Assembly: GCF_039233145.1 (NCBI RefSeq)
Contig: NZ_CP136419.1
Location: 2,082,001-2,146,000, forward strand
DNA length: 64,000 bases
DNA from: Moorella humiferrea
GTDB taxonomy: Bacteria > Bacillota > DSM-521 > Neomoorellales > Neomoorellaceae
Reading direction: 5' to 3'
Part shown: piece after piece, positions 11,609 to 32,913 of the stretch
How the letters are laid out: every line of letters begins with the position of its first letter
How positions within the stretch are numbered: the first letter of the stretch is position 1
Program-made: the position numbers and the translations under genes
The notes under the pieces: generated by a model
Seen by the model: only the letters and a program-made list of their open reading frames with translations
Databases searched by the model: none
What the model was told of the DNA's origin: nothing

Positions 11609-12748
11609 TTATTTGGGAATATCGCCTTCAACGCCCTCAACAAACCAGTCAAAACCGAGTACATCTTGGTGACTCATCTTCTGTCCTTCAGGCACTCGTA
11701 CTTTCCCGCTCTGGTCCTTGATGGGGCCCTGGAAGACATAGAACTTGCCGTCGATAATTTCCTGTTTCTTGGCGTTCACCAGGTCACGCACTTCCTGGGG
11801 CACCTTGTCGCTGAAGGGCCCGAGGTCAACCACACCGTCTTTCATAGTTCCGTAGTAGTCCTCAGATTTCCACGTCCCATTTTTGACGGCTTCAACCGTC
11901 TTTACATAATACGGACCCCAGTTCCAGATCGGCGAGGTCAAATTGGCATTGGGAGCGAACTGGCGCATGTCACTGTTATAACCGATGCCGTATTTACCCC
12001 GCTCCTGGGCTGCCTGCTGCGGTCCCGGGGTGTCTTGGTGCTGGGCGATAACGTCGGCGCCGGCATCTAGAAGGCTTAAAGCCGCCTGTTTTTCGGCCGC
12101 CGGGTCATACCAGGTATTGGTCCAGACTACCTTAACCTTAACGTTGGGGTTAACTGAACGCGCCCCCAGGGTAAAGGCGTTGATGCCGCGGATTACTTCC
12201 GGAATGGGGTGGGCTGCTACATACCCCAGAACGTTGGTCTTGGTCATTTTGCCGGCCACCATGCCGGAAAGATAACGGGGTTCTTCCATAGCGCCAAAGT
12301 AAGTACCGACATTGGCAGCCGTCTTATAGCCGGAGCAGTGCATAAAGACGACGTTGGGGTATTTCTGGGCCACCTTGATTACGTAATCCATGTAGCCGAA
12401 GCTGGTAGCAAAAATGACCTTATTACCCTTTTCCGCCAGTTCCGTTAAAACCCTTTCTACGTCGGCCCCCTCGGGGACGTTTTCTACATAAGAGGCTTCC
12501 ACCCAGGGTAATTTATCCACCAGGTACTTGCGTCCCTGCTCATGGGCCCAGGTCCATCCGGCATCACCAATCGGTCCCACATAAATAAAGGCGACCTTCA
12601 TTTTCTGGTCTGCAGCCTGCCCTGCGGCCGGCTTTTCCCCGCTCTGGCTGTTCCCGGCCGGTTTCTGGCCGCCGCAGCCGGCGGCAAATACAGCTACCAC
12701 CAAGGCCAGGAGCAGCACTGGTATGAAACGCCATCCTTTACGCATCAT
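11609..12748 (-). CDS. bmpA: BMP family nucleoside-binding lipoprotein
   Basis: This is the extracytoplasmic substrate-binding protein of the importer. The N-terminus from 12748 (MMRKGWRF, hydrophobic stretch, then lipobox FAAGC) is a lipoprotein signal; the cysteine would be lipidated. The body has BMP-family features such as KVAFIYVGPIGDAGWTWAH. A longer reading from a GTG at 12784 is possible, but that codon lies inside the AAGGAGG sequence, so I chose the Met pair at the signal peptide. The IS end lies only about 60 bases upstream of this start. A purine riboswitch that probably once headed the operon lies beyond the IS. Confidence 0.88.
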   Translation of the reverse strand: MMRKGWRFIPVLLLALVVAVFAAGCGGQKPAGNSQSGEKPAAGQAADQKMKVAFIYVGPIGDAGWTWAHEQGRKYLVDKLPWVEASYVENVPEGADVERVLTELAEKGNKVIFATSFGYMDYVIKVAQKYPNVVFMHCSGYKTAANVGTYFGAMEEPRYLSGMVAGKMTKTNVLGYVAAHPIPEVIRGINAFTLGARSVNPNVKVKVVWTNTWYDPAAEKQAALSLLDAGADVIAQHQDTPGPQQAAQERGKYGIGYNSDMRQFAPNANLTSPIWNWGPYYVKTVEAVKNGTWKSEDYYGTMKDGVVDLGPFSDKVPQEVRDLVNAKKQEIIDGKFYVFQGPIKDQSGKVRVPEGQKMSHQDVLGFDWFVEGVEGDIPK

Positions 12749-12750
12749 GT

Positions 12751-12779
12751 GTCCATAGCTTGTCCTGCAAACTATGGAC
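12751..12779. repeat. Perfect 8-bp inverted repeat in the bmpA ribosome-binding region
   Basis: GTCCATAG (12751-12758) and CTATGGAC (12772-12779) are perfect complements with a 13-base spacer. They fall between the AAGGAGG at 12784-12790 and the likely ATG at 12748. A hairpin here would bring the ribosome site close to the start codon or hide it. Confidence 0.5.
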
Positions 12780-12809
12780 TCCACCTCCTTTTTGATGTTT
12801 TTTTAGCCT

Positions 12810-12924: not shown

Positions 12925-14265
12925 TTGCCCAAACATAAGCAAATTTCCTTGTGTGATCTCTACGAAGAATTTGAACAGGCTTCAAGCAAAGACAAACTGA
13001 AAATGCTCACCGATTACGTAGACATCGAAGAGATTATCCCCTTAGAGGTTAAACTGGCTTACTACAAATCCACTGGTCGCCCCCCTTATTCTTTAGCGTC
13101 CATGTTGTCTGCCTTAATCCTCCAGAAGATCTTATCCATTCCCACAGTTGAACTTTTGGTTACCTTCCTTGAATTGTCAGAGCCCCTGAGAGACTTTTGC
13201 GGCTTTACTCAAAGCGTTCCTGACCCCGCTACTTTCTCGAGGTTTAAAGATAAAATCGGGCCAAAGGAGCTTAAAAAAATCTTAGACCGTTTGGTGGAAC
13301 TAACCGAGCCCTACTTAAAAAAGCTCGACCCTTTTGCGGCCTCCCTTCTCGTCCTGGATACAACCGGCTTAGAAGTGCCGGTAAGAGAAAATAACCCGAA
13401 GTTCTTTTATTCCTTGAAAAACCAGGTCGAGAAGGGAGCCCCTGAAAAACCTGAAAACGAGATTTATGCCATGACTATTGCCAAAATGCCCAAATGTGCC
13501 AGGGCCGCCCCAAAGGCCAAACTCATGTATACCAACGGTCACTTTGCTTATGCCTACACCGCTGCTATCCTGACTAACGGTTTCGGCCTCGTCCGGAATG
13601 TGATGCTTTTTGAAGGACAGAAAGATTCGCTTCTCGTAAAACCGGTCCTGGAGGATTTCCGGCAGCACCATGACCTTTCCCGTTACGAGTTTTTTGCCGG
13701 TGACGCCGGGTTCGACAGCACGGAAAACTTCCGTTACCTGGTGCAAGATTGCAACCTTAAGCCGGTTATTAACCTCAATCCCCGGAATACTAAAGAGCTG
13801 CCTGAGCCCCGGCTCGCTCCCGAGGGAGTACCAGTGTGCCCCAAAAATCCATCCTTAAAGTTTAAATACGCCGGCTTCTGTAAATCCAGAAACCGTATTA
13901 AATGGCTCTGCCCCTTAAGTAAGCCGGGGAAAAAGGGTTATACTTGCACCTGTCAAGACCCGTGTACCCCCTCTAAAAGCGGCCGGATGGTTTACACTTA
14001 TCCCCAGGACAACTACCGAAAAAATACTCCCGTCCCAAGGAACTCTGAGCTATGGAAGAAAATCTACCTTTTGCGCATTGCCGTGGAGCAAGCCATCTCC
14101 CGGCTAAAGCTTCCCCTCATGCTTGGCCGATTAACGGTGACGGACTTTGCTAGTGCTTCTTGCGATCTTGTCCTGGCAGCGATTGCTCAAAATCTTGTCG
14201 CTTTAATCGCTTTGAGAGCCAAGCTCAATGATAAAGTAAGGTCTATACGCTGGCTTGTTGCTTAG
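12925..14265 (+). CDS. DDE transposase, IS1182/IS4-like
   Basis: A 446-residue transposase. The N-terminal third, with PYSLASMLSALILQK and DPATFSRFKDKIG, resembles the DUF772-type domain of IS1182/IS5-like enzymes. Candidate catalytic residues are the Asp in VLDTTGLE (about 144), the Asp in AGDAGFDS (about 259) and the Glu in AVEQAISRLK (about 386). A cysteine-rich insert (CKSRNRIKWLCPLS, CTCQDPC) precedes the last one. The start is a TTG 8 bases after GGAGGTGA. The reading frame is intact, so the element may be active. Family assignment is by motif only. Confidence 0.88.
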   Translation: MPKHKQISLCDLYEEFEQASSKDKLKMLTDYVDIEEIIPLEVKLAYYKSTGRPPYSLASMLSALILQKILSIPTVELLVTFLELSEPLRDFCGFTQSVPDPATFSRFKDKIGPKELKKILDRLVELTEPYLKKLDPFAASLLVLDTTGLEVPVRENNPKFFYSLKNQVEKGAPEKPENEIYAMTIAKMPKCARAAPKAKLMYTNGHFAYAYTAAILTNGFGLVRNVMLFEGQKDSLLVKPVLEDFRQHHDLSRYEFFAGDAGFDSTENFRYLVQDCNLKPVINLNPRNTKELPEPRLAPEGVPVCPKNPSLKFKYAGFCKSRNRIKWLCPLSKPGKKGYTCTCQDPCTPSKSGRMVYTYPQDNYRKNTPVPRNSELWKKIYLLRIAVEQAISRLKLPLMLGRLTVTDFASASCDLVLAAIAQNLVALIALRAKLNDKVRSIRWLVA

Positions 14266-14906: not shown

Positions 14907-15797
14907 TTATTCTTCGACATCAATCTCTATTTTCCTGCCGGTGGCCCGAAAAAAAGCTGCGGTCAAAGCCCGGCTAACCAGGACGGCCGTTATATCTTTG
15001 CGATAGGCGCCGGAGCCACGGAGGAGGCTGTCCCGAGGCCGGGCAGCTTCTTTAGCCGCCGCTGCGGCCCGGGCAATCACCTCCGGGCACGGCTCCACAC
15101 CGACAAGGATCGCAGCCGCTTCCTCACATAGGAAAGGCCGCGGGGCCACCGGGGCGATGCAGATGCGCGCCCGAGTGCATCTGCCCCCCCTTACTTGGAC
15201 CCGCACGGCAGTATTGAGCATCGGCAGGGACAGGGCCCGCCGGGGCGAAAGGCGCTTGAAGTCCGAACCCTCTCCCTCACCCCATATGGGAATACTAAAA
15301 TGGGTTAATATCTCCCTACCGGCATCTACCTTGGAACGACCGACGCCTTCATATAGGTTTTCGACCGGCATCCGACGCTCGCCTGCCGGCCCTAGGATGG
15401 TGGCCACTGCCCCCAGGGCCACCAGGGCTACCGCCGTATCGGCCGCCGGTTGGGCGTTTACTACATTGCCCCCCAGGGTGCCGACGTTGCGGATCTGGGG
15501 CGAGCCGACGGCCGCCGCAGCGGCCGCCAGGGCCGGGAGTTTTTCCCGGATAAGCTTTGCGGCGGCAGCCTCGGCGTGGGTGACCGCCCCGCCGAGGATT
15601 ATCTCCCCGTCTTTTTCCTCAATGACCTTTAACTCCGGGATGCGGGAAACGTCCACCAGGGTATTAACCTGCCGCTTTTCTTCTTTAAGATCGATTACCA
15701 AGTCGGTGCCCCCGGCGATAATCCGCGCCCCCGGGCGGGCGGCCAGCATGGCCAGGGCTTCCTCCGTCGAGTTGGCAATAAGGTACTCCTGCGGCAT
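14907..15797 (-). CDS. ygfM: FAD-binding subunit of a molybdenum hydroxylase (YgfM-like)
   Basis: A CoxM/XdhB-type subunit that carries electrons between the iron-sulfur subunit and an external acceptor. The FAD motif ARIIAGGTDL lies near residues 24-33, and the second motif GTLGGNVVNAQPAADTA near 102-118. The start at 15797 follows AAGGAGCG, giving a 296-residue protein of normal length. A longer frame to 15941 only reads back into ssnA. It is the second FAD subunit of this operon, placed after ssnA, the order seen for ssnA-ygfM in E. coli. Confidence 0.9.
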   Translation of the reverse strand: MPQEYLIANSTEEALAMLAARPGARIIAGGTDLVIDLKEEKRQVNTLVDVSRIPELKVIEEKDGEIILGGAVTHAEAAAAKLIREKLPALAAAAAAVGSPQIRNVGTLGGNVVNAQPAADTAVALVALGAVATILGPAGERRMPVENLYEGVGRSKVDAGREILTHFSIPIWGEGEGSDFKRLSPRRALSLPMLNTAVRVQVRGGRCTRARICIAPVAPRPFLCEEAAAILVGVEPCPEVIARAAAAAKEAARPRDSLLRGSGAYRKDITAVLVSRALTAAFFRATGRKIEIDVEE

Positions 15798-15816
15798 GGT
15801 ATCGCTCCTTAAAAAA

Positions 15817-17142
15817 TTAGAACCTTTCCCAAACCTTGACCGCCAGCTCCCTGGCCCTGGCGGCAATGGCCGCCTCATCCAGGTGCAGGAGCCTTCGAGC
15901 GCGCATGAGGATTTTGCCGCCGATGATGGTCGTGTCCACAAGGCCGCCGTTGAAGCCGAAAAGGAGGTGGCCGAACCAGTTATCGGCCGTTATCGGGGTA
16001 GGTGCATGATAATTCACCAGTATTATGTCGGCATAGGCCCCTTCCTGGAGACGCCCCACGGGGTGGGCGAAGAACCGCTCCGCTATGCGGGAGTTGTTGC
16101 TGAAGACCATGGCCGGGACTTCCGACCAGCCGGCATTGGGATCGCCGGAAACGAGGCGGCGCAGAACATTGGCCGTCTTCAGGGATTCAAACATATCGCT
16201 GGTATAGCCGTCCGTCCCCAGGCCGACGACCACCCCCGCCGCAAGCATTTCTCCCACCGGAGCGCAGCCGACGGCGTTACCCATGTTGGATTCCGGATTG
16301 TGGACCACCAGGGTACCCGTTTCCTTGAGGATGGCTATTTCCCTTTCCGTCACATGGACGCAGTGGGCGGCGACGGTATCGGGGCCCAGAATGCCGTGGT
16401 CAGCCAGGCGCTCCACCACCCGCTTACCCTCGCGCTCTAAGGCGTCTTCTACGTCCTGGATGCCTTCCGCCACGTGGATGTGAAAACCGCTGCCCACCTC
16501 CTCCGCAGCCTCCCGGCAGGCGTCCAGGGTGGCGTCGGAGAGGGTAAAGGAGGCGTGGAGGCCGAAGGTGGCGCTGAGCAAACCTTCCCCGCCGCGGTAT
16601 TTTTTAATGGCCTCTACATTTTCCGCAATACCCTGCCGCATAATTTCCTCGCCGTCGCGGTCGGAAACCTCATAGGCCAGGCAGGTGCGCACACCCGCTT
16701 CACCAGCCGCCTGGGCGATCATCTCCAGGCTGCCGCGAACGGCGCAAGGGCTGGCGTGATGGTCCAGGATGGTGGTGGTGCCGTTCTTAATGCAGTCAAT
16801 GAGGGGAATCAGGGCGCTGTAATAAACGTCCTCCAGGGTAAGGGCCTTATCCAGGCGCCACCAGAGGCGCTGTAAAATCTCCAGGAAATTGGTGGGCGGC
16901 GCTTCCTTCAGGGCCATGCCCCGGGCGAAGGTGCTGTAAAGGTGCATGTGGTTGTTTATCAAGCCCGGCATGATTACCATGCCCCGGGCGTCGAGCCATT
17001 CGGCTTCAGGATAACGCCGCCTAAGCTCGGCCGTCGCTCCCACGGCGACGATGCGGTCGCCCTCAACGGCCACGGCTCCGTCTGCCAGGTAGGGCCGCTC
17101 CGGTACTAAGGACAGCAGATGGCCATTGCCAACAAGGAGCAT
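15817..17142 (-). CDS. ssnA: SsnA-type amidohydrolase/aminohydrolase
   Basis: A 441-residue metal-dependent hydrolase of the amidohydrolase superfamily (guanine deaminase/SsnA branch). Metal ligands appear in order: NNHMHLY (near 65), HIHVAEG (about 220), AHCVH (about 260) and GTDGYTSD (about 312). The protein is full length. SsnA accompanies XdhD and YgfK in purine degradation clusters, where it deaminates or opens a purine-derived ring. The exact substrate cannot be read from the sequence. It lies 20 bases upstream of the ygfM-like gene. Confidence 0.92.
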   Translation of the reverse strand: MLLVGNGHLLSLVPERPYLADGAVAVEGDRIVAVGATAELRRRYPEAEWLDARGMVIMPGLINNHMHLYSTFARGMALKEAPPTNFLEILQRLWWRLDKALTLEDVYYSALIPLIDCIKNGTTTILDHHASPCAVRGSLEMIAQAAGEAGVRTCLAYEVSDRDGEEIMRQGIAENVEAIKKYRGGEGLLSATFGLHASFTLSDATLDACREAAEEVGSGFHIHVAEGIQDVEDALEREGKRVVERLADHGILGPDTVAAHCVHVTEREIAILKETGTLVVHNPESNMGNAVGCAPVGEMLAAGVVVGLGTDGYTSDMFESLKTANVLRRLVSGDPNAGWSEVPAMVFSNNSRIAERFFAHPVGRLQEGAYADIILVNYHAPTPITADNWFGHLLFGFNGGLVDTTIIGGKILMRARRLLHLDEAAIAARARELAVKVWERF

Positions 17143-17177: not shown

Positions 17178-17648
17178 CTAATCCGCCAGGGCCTTCTCCA
17201 CCGCTTTGATGATGTTCTGATAACCGGTACAGCGACAGAGGTGGCCGGACAACTCCCTTTTTATTTCCTCTCGCGTATACTTTTTACCCTTCGCCGCCAT
17301 GGCCGTTGCCGTGAGGACATAACCCGGCGTACAAAAACCGCACTGGATGGCCCCTTCTTCGATGAAGGCCTTCTGCACCTTGGAAAGCTCCCCGTTTTTG
17401 GCGATACCTTCTATGGTAACTATATCTTTACCGTCGGCCCAAACGGCCAAATAAATGCAGGAGTCCACAGGCGTGCCGTCGATGAGGACGGTACAGGCAC
17501 CGCACTCTCCGACTTCACATCCTTTTTTAACTCCGGTGTACCCCAGGCGTTCCCGCAAAACCTCCAGGAGGGACTCGCGTACGTCTACTTCCAGGGCGAC
17601 CTGAAGGCCGTTTACGGTAAAGGATATTTTTTTAAGCAATGGCTTCAC
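17178..17648 (-). CDS. [2Fe-2S] subunit of a molybdenum hydroxylase
   Basis: A 156-residue iron-sulfur subunit with all eight cluster cysteines: CEVGECGACTVLIDG for the plant-type cluster, then QCGFCTPG and HLCRCTGYQ for the second. It relays electrons from the Mo site to FAD. It overlaps the end of the preceding FAD subunit gene by 17 bases. A second, separate 2Fe-2S gene starts this same operon, which is unusual. Confidence 0.95.
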   Translation of the reverse strand: MKPLLKKISFTVNGLQVALEVDVRESLLEVLRERLGYTGVKKGCEVGECGACTVLIDGTPVDSCIYLAVWADGKDIVTIEGIAKNGELSKVQKAFIEEGAIQCGFCTPGYVLTATAMAAKGKKYTREEIKRELSGHLCRCTGYQNIIKAVEKALAD

Positions 17649-18516
17649 CCCCCGCCTTGACTATCGCTTCCCGCAGGGCCCTCTGGGTGAGTTCCTCCAC
17701 CAAATGCTCCCGGTATTCCCTGGAAGCGCGCCAGGAGGTTCGCGCCTGGGCAGCTTTAACCGCCAGTTTGCCGATTGTCGCTATTGTTTCACTTGTTATG
17801 GCTTTGCCTTTGGCAAAGGCCTCCGCTTCCGGACAACGTCGCGGCGTCGGGCCCGCCACTCCCAGACCGATGCGCACGTCCTCCAGGATCCTGCCTTCCT
17901 TTACTTTACAAACAACGGCCACGCCCAGGGTGGCAATATCCATGGCCCTGCGTTGGGAGAATTTAATGTAATGCCCGCCGTAGCCCCGGTAATCCTCGGG
18001 GGAAATGAGAATCTGGGTGAGGAGTTCGCCGGGTTTTAAAGCGACTTTTCCGGGGCCCAGGTAAAAATCCTGGATGGGTGTTACCCGTTCACCTGTATTA
18101 TTTTTTAGTTTCAACCTGGCGCCCAGGGCAAAAAGGGTGGGGGCGCTGTCGGCCGAAGTGGCTCCGTTGCACAGGTTGCCGCCGATGGTGGCAACGTTGC
18201 GTATCTGGGGGCCGCCTATGGTGAGAGCCGCCTCGGCAAGGACGGGGATATGGTCTTTAATTACCGGGTCTTCGGCCACCCGGCTGAAGGTCGTCAAGGG
18301 GCCGATGGCGATAGTACCGTCCTCTAATTTCTGCACGCCCTCAAGGGATTTTATGTGACGAATGCTTAAAAGCTCCGCACCCTCAATAACACCGTGCCGC
18401 AGCTTTATCAAAACATCGGTGCCGCCGGCGATTACCGTCAGGCGGGGGTTGGCTGCCAAGAGCGCCAGGGCTTCGGCGAGGGTTGTCGCCTCATGATATC
18501 CTTGAAAATTGTACAT
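17632..18516 (-). CDS. FAD-binding subunit of a molybdenum hydroxylase
   Basis: A 294-residue XdhB/CoxM-type subunit. FAD contacts are visible as TVIAGGTDVLIKL (about 28-40) and ATIGGNLCNGATSADSA (about 108-124). It lies 18 bases after the Mo subunit gene and overlaps the following 2Fe-2S gene, so Mo, FAD and 2Fe-2S subunits form a conventional three-gene hydroxylase with an extra 2Fe-2S gene upstream. Confidence 0.95.
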   Translation of the reverse strand: MYNFQGYHEATTLAEALALLAANPRLTVIAGGTDVLIKLRHGVIEGAELLSIRHIKSLEGVQKLEDGTIAIGPLTTFSRVAEDPVIKDHIPVLAEAALTIGGPQIRNVATIGGNLCNGATSADSAPTLFALGARLKLKNNTGERVTPIQDFYLGPGKVALKPGELLTQILISPEDYRGYGGHYIKFSQRRAMDIATLGVAVVCKVKEGRILEDVRIGLGVAGPTPRRCPEAEAFAKGKAITSETIATIGKLAVKAAQARTSWRASREYREHLVEELTQRALREAIVKAGGEAIA

Positions 18517-18534: not shown

Positions 18535-20826
18535 CTATATGAGCCCGGCTTCTTTGCATTTCTCGAAGACCTTCTGGGGAGTCATGGGCAACCTGTTAAA
18601 GGCCACGCCGGTAGCGTCGAACACGGCGTTGCGGACGGCCGGGGCCACCGGAATTACCGGCGGCTCGCCCAGGGCCTTGCAGCCGTAAGGGCTTGTCGGC
18701 TCGTGGGTTTCCACGAAGGCCACGCCGATTTCCGGCACGTCCATGATGGTCGGTATTTTATAATCCAGCAGGTTGTTATTCAAAGGTCTTCCCGTCTTTT
18801 CATCAAAGAGTAGTTGTTCCGCCAGGGCATAACCGATGCCCATGCTTACGCCGCCGTGGACCTGGCCTTCCGCCAGCTGCGGGTTGATGATTTTTCCCGA
18901 ATCGTGGACGTTGTATATTTCTAGGATCTCTATTTTCCCGGTTTTCAGGTCCACCTCCACTTCGGCAAAGGTGGCGCCGAAGACAAAGGCGTTAATCCGG
19001 GCGTTGTTGGACGTATCGCTCGTTATGGGGCTGGCGAAAACGGTATCGTAATAGGTGTGCAGGGCTACTTCCTCCAGGGGCATGACGACTTCCCCGGAGT
19101 GCTTATAGACAATATTCCGGTCTTTAATATCTAGGGCGTGGGCGGGGATGTCGGTCATACCCCAGACGAAATCCAAAATTTTGGCCTTCACCTCGGCGGC
19201 CGCTTTGGCCACGGCCATGCCGGTGATATAAGTTTGTCTGGAGGCGTAGGCGCCGGTATCGAAGGGGGTGATATCGGTGTCCTGGGTGGAAACGACGTGC
19301 ACCATATCGACGGGGATACCCAGGACTTCCGCCACCATCTGGGCAAAAACCGTATCGCTCCCCTGCCCTATTTCGGTGGCTCCGACCTGCAGCTGGACGG
19401 AGCCGTCCTGGTTCAATACGATTCTTGCTCCGGCCATTTCCAGCCCTACCGGATGGGTCCCGGAAGCGTAGCTGAAACAGGCCATTCCCAGGCCGCGCCG
19501 TTTGCTGCCGGTTTGATTTTTATAGCGCTCCTTTTTCTCGTCCCATTTGATTAACTCTTTCCCCTTCATTATGCATTCGCGAATGCCGCAGCTCCTGACC
19601 CTGTTGCCGTTTAAGGGGTCGACATAACCCTCCGTTACCAGATTCTTCAGCCGTAGTTCAATGGGATCCATATTGAGCCTCCGGGCAATGGCGTCCAGGT
19701 GGCTTTCCACGGCGAAGGTTATCTGGGGCGAGCCGTAACCCCGCATGGCGCCGGCGACGGGCAGGTTGGTGTAAACGGTATAAGGTTCGTATTTCAAAGC
19801 TTCCATGGGGTAAAGGATCCTGAACTTCGTGCCGCCGGCCATGGCGATGGAATGGCCATGGGAGGCATAGGCACCGGTATTGGCGACGGCCTTGATATGC
19901 ATGCCGATGAGCTTCCCGTCTTTGCTGACCCCTGTCTTAATCTTATATTTAATGGCATGACGGGTCCGGGTGTCGATCATACACTCTTCCCGGGACAGTT
20001 CCAGCTTCACCGGCCGCCCGCCGACGGCCAAAGTCATGGCCGCAACTATTGGCTCCAGGCACGCGTCCTGCTTGCTGCCGAAGCCGCCGCCCACGTAAGG
20101 CTTTATTACCCGCACCCTGCCCCAGGGTATCCCCAAGGCCTGACCGACGATTCTCCTGATTATATGCGGTATCTGGGTGGAGGTGACAATGACAATACGG
20201 CCGTCGCTATCGACATAGGCGTAGGAAGTGTGGTTTTCCAGCTGGCAGTGCTGGACGATACTAGTTTCCAGCTCGTCTTCAAAGATATAGTCGGCCTTTT
20301 GCCAGGCTTCTTCAATATTGCCGATTTCATAACCAAAAGAGCTTAAGATGTTGCCCTCACAGTCTTCGTGGATCCGGGGCGCCCCTTCCCGCATGGCCGC
20401 TTCAGGGGTGAGGAGGGGTTCCAGCACTTCGTATTCTACATCTATTAATTTCAGAGCTTCCAATGCGGTCAGTTCGTCCCTGGCCACAACGGCGGCAACG
20501 GCGTCCCCCACAAAGCGGGCTTTGTCCGTTAAAATAGTGCGGTCGGCCTTGTCCCTGTGTTTGGGATCAAGGGCATAAGGGTGCCCGGCGGTGGCAAATT
20601 TTATTTGCGGGACGTCTTTATACGTCAAAACCGCTTCCACTCCGGGCAGCGCCCTTGCCCTATCGGCATCGATATTTTTAATGCGGGCATGGGCATAGGG
20701 ACTGCGCAGAATTTTCCCCACCAGCATGTCCCTGGTAAAAAAGTCGGCAGTATACTTGGCTTTCCCGGTAACTTTGGCCACGGCGTCTACCCGGCTTATG
20801 CTCCTACCCACTACCGCAGAAGCCAT
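18535..20826 (-). CDS. Molybdopterin-binding catalytic subunit of a xanthine dehydrogenase family enzyme
   Basis: A 763-residue large subunit that binds the Mo-pterin cofactor and hydroxylates an N-heterocycle. VGGGFGSKQD lies near 247, the RGYG cofactor loop (AMRGYGSPQI) near 360, and the catalytic glutamate in KALGEPPV near 719. The start at 20826 follows GGGAGGAATAAA; the frame further upstream is spurious. The purine riboswitch in front and SsnA behind point to a purine substrate. Whether it carries the labile selenium ligand cannot be seen in the protein sequence. Confidence 0.93.
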   Translation of the reverse strand: MASAVVGRSISRVDAVAKVTGKAKYTADFFTRDMLVGKILRSPYAHARIKNIDADRARALPGVEAVLTYKDVPQIKFATAGHPYALDPKHRDKADRTILTDKARFVGDAVAAVVARDELTALEALKLIDVEYEVLEPLLTPEAAMREGAPRIHEDCEGNILSSFGYEIGNIEEAWQKADYIFEDELETSIVQHCQLENHTSYAYVDSDGRIVIVTSTQIPHIIRRIVGQALGIPWGRVRVIKPYVGGGFGSKQDACLEPIVAAMTLAVGGRPVKLELSREECMIDTRTRHAIKYKIKTGVSKDGKLIGMHIKAVANTGAYASHGHSIAMAGGTKFRILYPMEALKYEPYTVYTNLPVAGAMRGYGSPQITFAVESHLDAIARRLNMDPIELRLKNLVTEGYVDPLNGNRVRSCGIRECIMKGKELIKWDEKKERYKNQTGSKRRGLGMACFSYASGTHPVGLEMAGARIVLNQDGSVQLQVGATEIGQGSDTVFAQMVAEVLGIPVDMVHVVSTQDTDITPFDTGAYASRQTYITGMAVAKAAAEVKAKILDFVWGMTDIPAHALDIKDRNIVYKHSGEVVMPLEEVALHTYYDTVFASPITSDTSNNARINAFVFGATFAEVEVDLKTGKIEILEIYNVHDSGKIINPQLAEGQVHGGVSMGIGYALAEQLLFDEKTGRPLNNNLLDYKIPTIMDVPEIGVAFVETHEPTSPYGCKALGEPPVIPVAPAVRNAVFDATGVAFNRLPMTPQKVFEKCKEAGLI

Positions 20827-20827
20827 T

Positions 20828-21376
20828 TTATTCCTCCCTTTCCTGCGAAGACAATAACGCCGCCCCTCGCCCGGAACGCGACCCTTCAATCCGGCCGCCC
20901 CCGGCCGGGGTTCCCATAACGGCGGCCGCCTTTTCTACCGCAGCTATAATTTTAGCATAACCGGTGCAGCGGCACAGGTTGCCCGCCAGGGCGTCTTTTA
21001 TTTCCTCCCGGGAAGGATTGGGGTTCCGGTCCAGGAGGGCCTTGGCGCTCATGATCATGCCCGGGGTGCAGAAACCGCACTGGACGGCCCCTTCGCCGAT
21101 GAAGGCTTCCTGCAGGGGATGGAGCCGACCGTCAGGGGAAGCCAGACCTTCGACAGTCTGAATTTCGGCACCGTCGGCCTTGGCCGCCGGTATCAAGCAG
21201 GAATCCACGGCCAGGCCGTCCATGATCACCGTGCAGGCGCCGCATTCCCCCTTGCCGCACCCTTCCTTGGTACCGGTAAGTCCCAAATAATCCCGCAAAA
21301 GTTCCAGCAGAGTCGTATCAGCCGGCACATCCACCTGGTAAAGACGGCCGTTGACGGTAAGTTTGATCCCCGGCAC
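20828..21376 (-). CDS. [2Fe-2S] subunit of a molybdenum hydroxylase, first gene of the riboswitch operon
   Basis: A 182-residue subunit with CGKGECGACTVIMDG, QCGFCTPGM and NLCRCTGYA. It is longer than usual because of a ~25-residue Gly/Arg/Ser-rich tail after the conserved domain. The start is GTG, 7 bases after AGGGGGT and about 20 bases downstream of the riboswitch terminator. One base separates its stop from the large-subunit start, so the two are probably co-translated. It is one of two 2Fe-2S subunits in this operon. Confidence 0.93.
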   Translation of the reverse strand: MPGIKLTVNGRLYQVDVPADTTLLELLRDYLGLTGTKEGCGKGECGACTVIMDGLAVDSCLIPAAKADGAEIQTVEGLASPDGRLHPLQEAFIGEGAVQCGFCTPGMIMSAKALLDRNPNPSREEIKDALAGNLCRCTGYAKIIAAVEKAAAVMGTPAGGGRIEGSRSGRGAALLSSQEREE

Positions 21377-21398
21377 GGCACATACCCCCTGACAACAT

Positions 21399-21452
21399 AA
21401 AAAACCAGCTGCCGGACCCGACTCGTAGTCAGGCGATTTCCGGTCACCTGGT
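21399..21452 (-). terminator. Terminator overlapping purine riboswitch 1
   Basis: On the minus strand ACCAGGTGACCGG (21440-21452, inside aptamer J2/3-P3-L3) pairs with CCGGCAGCTGGT (21404-21415) with one mismatch and one bulge, 11 pairs in all, followed by TTTTTT. Because the 5' arm is part of the aptamer, ligand binding should prevent terminator formation. Confidence 0.7.
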
Positions 21453-21487
21453 AGATACCCCCGGCCCCATCGCCGGGGTTATACGAG
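21422..21487 (-). promoter_or_regulatory. Purine riboswitch 1, guanine-type core
   Basis: The minus strand gives P1 CTCGTA/TACGAG, P2 CCCCGGC/GCCGGGG, joining segment GTATCTACC, P3 CAGGTGA/TCGCCTG with loop CCGGAAA, and GACTA with the specificity base C (C74 equivalent at 21428). Core positions match guanine riboswitches (U22, U47, C50, U51, C74). The L2 loop is GATGGG, one base shorter than usual. It heads the Mo hydroxylase/ssnA operon. Confidence 0.9.
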
Positions 21488-21497
21488 TTTATTGAGA

Positions 21498-21527
21498 ATT
21501 ATATTCGGCAAATATATCTTAAATCCT
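21498..21527 (-). promoter_or_regulatory. Promoter of purine riboswitch 1
   Basis: AGGATTT (21521-21527), 14 bases, GAATATAAT on the minus strand. TATAAT at 21498-21503 puts the transcription start at about 21491, immediately before P1 of the aptamer, which supports the assignment. Confidence 0.65.
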
Positions 21528-21556
21528 GCTGAAAATTTAATTTTCTTCCTGATATT

Positions 21557-31932: not shown

Positions 31933-32913
31933 TTACCCCATAGTGGCCGCCAGCAGGGCCTTAATGGTGTGCAGGCGGTTTTCGGCTTCGTCGTAGATTA
32001 CCGACTGCGGGCCGTCCATAACTTCTTCCGTCACTTCAACACCCCGGTCGGCCGGCATGCAGTGCATGTAGATGGCATCCTTCTGGCCCAACTTCATGCG
32101 GCGGCCGTCCATGACCCAGGTATTGTATTTTTCAATGAGGTCTAGGCCTTCTTCCCTGCTGCCGGTATAGGCGATGGGACCCCAGCTCTTGGCATAAATA
32201 ACGTGGGCGCCTTTACAGGCTTCGTCCATGTCGTGGACGATGCGAAACTCTACGCCGTTCTCTTCCGCATTTTTCTTCGCCTGTTCCACGATCTCCGGGA
32301 GCAGGTGGAACTCGGGCGGATGGGCCAGGGTGACGTTCATGCCGAACCTGGGCATCAACAGGATCAGGGACTGGGGCATGGACAGGGGACGGATGTAATT
32401 GGGGGCGTAGGTCCAGCTGATGGTGAAATTGAGGCCCCTGGTGTTTTTGCCGAACTTCTCCTGTATGGTCATGATGTCGGCCAGAGCCTGGGTGGGATGG
32501 TACATATCGCACTGCATGTTGAGGACGGGGATGCGGGAATGTTTGGCCAGCTCCCGGATATAGGCGTTACCTTTTTTATAAGTGCAGTAGCGCACACCCA
32601 GACCGTCGCCAAAGCGGCTTAAAACCTCCACCGTGTCCTTGGCCGTCTCGCCGTGGCCAATCTGGGTTTCCGAAGGAGTCAGGAATATGGCGTGCCCGCC
32701 CAGCTGGGTCATGCCGGTTTCGAAGGCGTTGCGGGTGCGGGTGGAGTTTTCAAAGAAAAGCATGTAGAAGGTTTTGTCTTCGAGGAGGCGGTGTTTTTCT
32801 CCCAGGGCTTTGCGCCTTTTTAAATCATAGGCGATATCCAGCACCGTATCGATTTCTTCTTTGGTCCATTCCTGCAGGGTAATGAGGTGCTTACCCCGTA
32901 AATCGGTTTTCAT
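31933..32913 (-). CDS. ygeW: YgeW-type carbamoyltransferase
   Basis: A 326-residue member of the aspartate/ornithine carbamoyltransferase superfamily. The carbamoyl-phosphate motif FFENSTRTR occurs at residues 53-61, HPTQALAD near 139, and HCMPADRG near 288 where ornithine enzymes have HCLP. YgeW proteins are found in purine/urate catabolic clusters and have an unsettled substrate, probably a ureido compound cleaved by phosphate to carbamoyl phosphate. A carbamate kinase at 49.4 kb could then make ATP. It has its own promoter and a GGGGGG ribosome site, separate from hyuA. Confidence 0.88.
   Translation of the reverse strand: MKTDLRGKHLITLQEWTKEEIDTVLDIAYDLKRRKALGEKHRLLEDKTFYMLFFENSTRTRNAFETGMTQLGGHAIFLTPSETQIGHGETAKDTVEVLSRFGDGLGVRYCTYKKGNAYIRELAKHSRIPVLNMQCDMYHPTQALADIMTIQEKFGKNTRGLNFTISWTYAPNYIRPLSMPQSLILLMPRFGMNVTLAHPPEFHLLPEIVEQAKKNAEENGVEFRIVHDMDEACKGAHVIYAKSWGPIAYTGSREEGLDLIEKYNTWVMDGRRMKLGQKDAIYMHCMPADRGVEVTEEVMDGPQSVIYDEAENRLHTIKALLAATMG

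Follow-up and report, generated by a model that had tools for sequence, protein, structure and literature searches.

Judged from its leader, the xdh-ssnA operon of Moorella humiferrea is very probably controlled by a transcriptional ON switch, consisting of a guanine-I aptamer under a sigma-H-type promoter. The leader lies in the window, i.e. the whole stretch of 64,000 nucleotides that was analysed, and all features of the leader and its operon given below are on the minus strand.

The aptamer and its terminator

A search with the Rfam Purine model, proposed as a check in the preliminary description, returned a full-length RF00167 match at 21506-21406(-), with a score of 74.9 bits, the cut-off being 37 (E 1.8e-11). 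The alignment spans model positions 1-102 with no insertion and a single deletion, in L2, and the three-way junction fold with its conserved J1/2, J2/3 and J3/1 core is present. The guanine class and the discriminating C predicted earlier are confirmed: C74 is at 21428, and the alignment columns also hold U22, U47 and U51, i.e. the guanine-I core. Only the exact ends of the aptamer, first placed at 21422-21487, needed a small correction, to 21488-21421, based on the RF00167 match and on the pocket columns over 113 aptamers. Within these bounds lie P1 (21488-21483/21426-21421, from the RF00167 alignment), P2 (21478-21472/21465-21459, with GAUGGG as L2), J2/3 (21458-21451), P3 (21450-21444/21436-21430, with CCGGAAA as L3) and J3/1 (21429-21427, including C74). 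L2 is one base short, and the bases available for L2-L3 pairing, by sequence only, are GG of L2 and CC of L3. Three purine aptamers are present in the M. humiferrea genome. At 14695-14595(-) the window contains a BMP-transporter-type purine riboswitch that has decayed, with 28.9 bits (below the cut-off) and with damage in J1/2, P3 and C50; an IS1182-family element (transposase 12925-14265) separates it from the transporter gene (11609-12784).

The intrinsic terminator stem (21404..21452) is recognised by its pairing and by its register in homologues, and ends at a U6 tract (21399..21404), the termination point predicted from the sequence. As proposed in the preliminary description, its 5' arm is the J2/3-P3-L3 strand of the aptamer: ACCAGGUGACCGG (21452-21440) pairs with CCGGCAGCUGGU (21415-21404). 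Inside this stem, the P3 3' and J3/1 strand (21434-21427) pairs with 21423-21416, in a hairpin that takes up the 3' strands of P3 and P1 as well as J3/1. Since the 5' arm extends from J2/3 through further aptamer strands, base pairing makes the bound aptamer and the terminator mutually exclusive at this leader. OFF regulation is usual but not defining for guanine-I aptamers, and here the terminator is embedded in the aptamer. An OFF switch, with the ligand promoting termination like in xpt and pur leaders, would follow the usual guanine-I logic (PMC9295807, PMC11477304), and the pur operon leader of the same genome is of the OFF type, with a downstream terminator that has no overlap with its aptamer. 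However, classification of the window leader found no hairpin before the U-tract that could form without aptamer bases, and we consider an OFF switch highly improbable.

The 63-nt terminator segment folds with -27.4 kcal/mol (z -4.1), and none of 200 dinucleotide shuffles was as good. In a stricter procedure, shuffling was confined to the 16 nt that separate P1 from the U-tract; in 39 of 300 sequences (13%) a hairpin of equal stability adjoining a U-tract then arose at some place in the leader, so that the single-copy hairpin is not beyond chance on its own. A chance hairpin, which the tail shuffles could not exclude, was rejected because orthologues and paralogues keep the same register. Until about 5 nt past P1 the aptamer fold has the lowest energy; by +10 the terminator fold has overtaken it. 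For the final leader the energies are -45.0 kcal/mol with the terminator and -35.0 kcal/mol with the aptamer enforced. Switching must then be kinetic, because equilibrium favours the terminator by 10 kcal/mol. This difference would also fit a vestigial or constitutive leader, in which regulation by the aptamer is lost and the terminator forms regardless, and the decay of the neighbouring copy in the same window points the same way. Such a leader is nevertheless very unlikely, as the window copy and every one of its orthologues retain an intact core, unlike the decayed copy with its 28.9 bits.

Conservation and direction of switching

The leader sample comprised 114 aptamers from 51 of the 101 genomes searched, each leader being classified by whether the hairpin before its U-tract needs aptamer bases. 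In all ten orthologous XDH leaders the terminator 5' arm is inside the aptamer, starting at the ACC of J2/3 in nine and slightly upstream in one. The same register recurs in two more leader families of the Moorellaceae, those of a BMP-type ABC transporter and of a second Mo-hydroxylase/amidohydrolase operon, and in most leaders of this family, whether of XDH, BMP-transporter or second-XDH genes, the arm starts at an offset of 54-55 relative to where the Rfam match begins. In another permease leader the terminator takes P3 3'-J3/1-P1 3' instead, like pbuE. The ON logic predicted in the preliminary description thus holds computationally, with an embedded terminator and an arrangement conserved in homologues. 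Because of a weak U-tract, the script assigned no class, or OFF, to five second-Mo-hydroxylase leaders and some others; judged by sequence, most of these share the aptamer-complementary arm. In the second Mo-hydroxylase operon, GGCAACCG pairs with CGGUUGCC in Moorella leaders, and GGUGACCGG pairs with CCGGUCACC in two other genomes (G014 and G017). As both members of the pair change together, the terminator 3' arm follows aptamer P3. Duplexes of a leader's own arms were on average stronger than those with arms of other groups for BMP, second-XDH and non-Moorella XDH leaders; the window's own leader group is uninformative on co-change, because its 5' arm hardly varies. In the Moorellaceae genomes examined, the large subunit of this second riboswitch-linked Mo-hydroxylase (L085 and orthologues) is split into ORFs of about 427 and 334 aa.

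XDH and BMP-transporter leaders of the sample gave 37 ON to 4 OFF and purine-biosynthesis leaders 4 ON to 24 OFF, counts that are not independent, most ON leaders being from one family; Fisher P values overstate independence, since the orthologues come from few lineages. These tallies still include automatic ON calls for purE/purK (L004, L010, L018) and for some xpt, guaA and guaB leaders that look spurious, apparently caused by an antiterminator or PRPP structure ahead of the U-run. A second sample comprised 45 aptamers drawn from the top-scoring matches in other parts of the phylum. Its BMP leaders were 3 OFF to 1 ON, and its XDH leaders 0 ON to 3 OFF by script, one of which (L256) was reversed by eye to ON for its aptamer-embedded terminator. 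XDH leaders of three other genomes (L089, L259, L247) and BMP leaders outside the Moorellaceae (L239, L246, L269) resemble OFF or guanine-PRPP tandem devices; the three XDH leaders look like the guanine-PRPP tandem type. An invariable ON direction for BMP and XDH leaders was therefore rejected outside the Moorellaceae. Within the Moorellaceae the ON rule for these leaders is firm; it is also present in four or more other families (G024, G062, G095/G130, G099), without being universal. It was also considered that XDH operons might generally carry such a switch; this was discarded, an aptamer being nearby in 1 of the 80 nearest named loci of the first gene, most of them from other phyla and some with incomplete flanks.

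Promoter and operon

Upstream of the aptamer, at 21501..21529, is the sigma-H-type promoter GCAGGATTT-N11-GCCGAATAT, with the -35 element at 21529-21521 and the -10 element at 21509-21501. Sigma-H, a starvation and sporulation sigma factor, recognises promoters with a spacer of N11-12. The elements strictly match the consensus RNAGGAWWW / RNNGAATWW (PMC8510167). An upstream sigma-H-type match, always with a spacer of 11 nt, is present in 10 of 10 orthologous XDH leaders. In the three main families, strict matches precede 26 of the 34 ON leaders, versus 0 of 13 pur leaders (0.01 expected per leader), counts that are only descriptive because the motif was noticed in the leaders before it was counted; TTGACA-type promoters are found in all 13 pur leaders. 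The independent check is genome-wide enrichment: the M. humiferrea genome has 79 sigma-H-type sites versus 10 with the reversed pattern, as well as a SigH gene (378 bits), and the motif is a real promoter class. Its presence on ON leaders suggests that these are under starvation-plus-purine control. Outside the leader groups of the Moorellaceae, sigma-H-like promoters were seen only at L256, L257, L110 and L194, purine aptamers of XDH, BMP or permease genes that are mostly ON-like. In the window, a tandem glycine riboswitch (3056-2846) also has a strict sigma-H-type match ahead of it (3119-3091(-)), a hint that promoters of this class serve further riboswitch operons. A further match, at 32986-32958(-), precedes a carbamoyltransferase gene (31933-32913) in the purine-degradation neighbourhood.

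Downstream of the leader, a Shine-Dalgarno-like AGGGGG (21385..21390) precedes the GTG start at 21376. The first gene (20828..21376) encodes the [2Fe-2S] subunit of an XDH-family Mo hydroxylase (PF01799/PF00111; NF041020 and NF043084 below cut-off). It is followed by XdhA, the molybdenum-binding subunit (18535..20889; NF007426, 1292 bits), XdhB, the FAD subunit (17632..18516; NF007427, 427 bits), XdhC, a second [2Fe-2S] subunit (17178..17648; NF043084, 256 bits), and the SsnA amidohydrolase (15817..17142; TIGR03314, 695 bits), all four above cut-off, and by a second, XdhB-like FAD subunit (14907..15941; PF00941/PF03450). These profile matches bear out the purine-degrading operon of the preliminary description. 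Elsewhere in the window are genes for a selenium-dependent xanthine dehydrogenase, a hydantoinase, a carbamoyltransferase and a threonine-synthase-like protein, and this context is compatible with the anaerobic purine degradation pathway.

Ligand, mechanism and relation to known switches

None of the pocket columns over the 113 aptamers separates ON from OFF, U22, U47, U51 and C74 being constant or nearly so in both sets. As the pocket is identical, ON and OFF aptamers differ in their expression platform only. In the model alignment and pocket columns, the window aptamer lacks the U51G and J2/3 insertion that mark xanthine-II, and in the alignment also the one-nucleotide J2/3 insertion and xanthine-II-like changes that mark guanine-II; U74, the adenine mark of pbuE, is replaced by the C at 21428. 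The 8-oxoguanine class is marked by a variant pocket and an 8-oxoguanine deaminase context; the pocket of the window aptamer is plain guanine-I. Guanine, hypoxanthine or xanthine is the expected inducer, because the guanine-I pocket is kept and the guanine-II and xanthine-II changes are absent. A variant pocket (8-oxoguanine, xanthine-II) was rejected, the columns being the same in ON and OFF aptamers. The ON device could also sense another purine derivative (xanthine, urate, 8-oxoguanine) rather than guanine, through changes of context or loops. The operon degrades xanthine-type purines, the guanine-class switch CD2704 of C. difficile responds to xanthine (PMC11477304), xanthine-II variants predicted to be ON precede xdh genes (PMC9295807), and many ON aptamers have a short L2 and L3. 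Such sensing is still unlikely, if less so than the other alternatives, given the guanine-I bases shared by both sets, the lack of U51G and of the xanthine-II-like J2/3 insertion, and a position 48 (A in the window aptamer) that varies freely in ON and OFF sets alike. L2 is one base short in 26 of 50 ON versus 2 of 36 OFF aptamers, and L3 in 23 of 50 versus 2 of 36, a difference confounded by descent. In xpt/pbuE hybrids, strand exchange is blocked when the L2-L3 contact is stable (PMC7707468), so short loops may weaken this contact and ease terminator formation.

We infer the following mechanism for the guanine-I ON switch, including the ligand, the direction in the cell, the dependence on sigma-H and the kinetic race. 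The sigma-H-type promoter would put the aptamer at the 5' end of the transcript, and RNA polymerase would complete it first. The ligand would have a short time window, as in pbuE, because the aptamer is complete before the terminator arm. Bound guanine (or hypoxanthine or xanthine) would lock the junction and stop strand exchange, and the polymerase would read on into xdh-ssnA. With no ligand bound, P3 and P1 would be displaced by the 3' arm CCGGCAGCUGGU as it emerges, and the resulting rod-shaped terminator would stop transcription at about 21399. The outcome would be purine-induced purine degradation, probably only with sigma-H active.

Guanine-I switches are described as OFF (PMC9295807), and this includes each of the four in C. 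difficile (PMC11477304); a survey of 2007 illustrates ON logic with glycine, adenine and lysine switches (PMC2258182). In the open-access literature searched, we found no guanine-I ON switch described, in line with the little-described use supposed in the preliminary description. Precedents for ON regulation are guanine-II, xanthine-II and the adenine riboswitch pbuE. In pbuE of B. subtilis the terminator captures the P1, J3/1 and P3 strands and the ligand blocks exchange, giving ON regulation (PMC7707468). By base pairing the window leader has such a terminator, but pbuE has U74, senses adenine and controls an exporter, whereas the window leader has C74, precedes degradation genes and has a 5' arm reaching back to J2/3. 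The guanine-I aptamers of xpt, guaA and pur have the same fold and pocket as the window aptamer and are reported OFF, with a separate downstream terminator in place of an embedded one. Guanine-II of Paenibacillus likewise senses guanine and is predicted ON (PMC9295807), but has junction insertions and mostly controls phosphoribosyltransferases, neither of which applies to the window. Xanthine-II, also predicted ON, precedes xanthine dehydrogenase and allantoinase genes (PMC9295807) and differs by U51G and by J2/3 and J3/1 insertions, where the window aptamer has U51 and is insertion-free. Ahead of the pur genes of the same genome lies a guanine aptamer whose leader looks, by sequence, like the tandem guanine-PRPP riboswitch (PMC5912903); guanine means OFF there, and the window leader has no PRPP aptamer.

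What is new here is the sigma-H-type promoters on ON leaders. The extension of the arrangement over several operons of the genus and the unchanged pocket likewise go beyond the preliminary description. On balance we favour the view that the purine uptake and degradation regulon of the Moorellaceae is built of AND gates, each a sigma-H-type promoter plus an ON guanine-I aptamer, with biosynthesis under a sigma-A-type promoter and guanine OFF. Its members would be XDH-SsnA, the second Mo-hydroxylase/amidohydrolase, the BMP-type ABC transporter and, in some species, a purine permease. If this is true, textbook OFF guanine-I aptamers became ON devices with their pocket unchanged, and one aptamer type sets opposite directions for opposite pathways via the expression platform alone. 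Direction would follow pathway in one genome, degradation being ON and synthesis OFF, and the evolution of riboswitch direction would be directly testable on natural paralogues. Purine degradation in these bacteria would then be predicted to be coupled to the starvation sigma factor.
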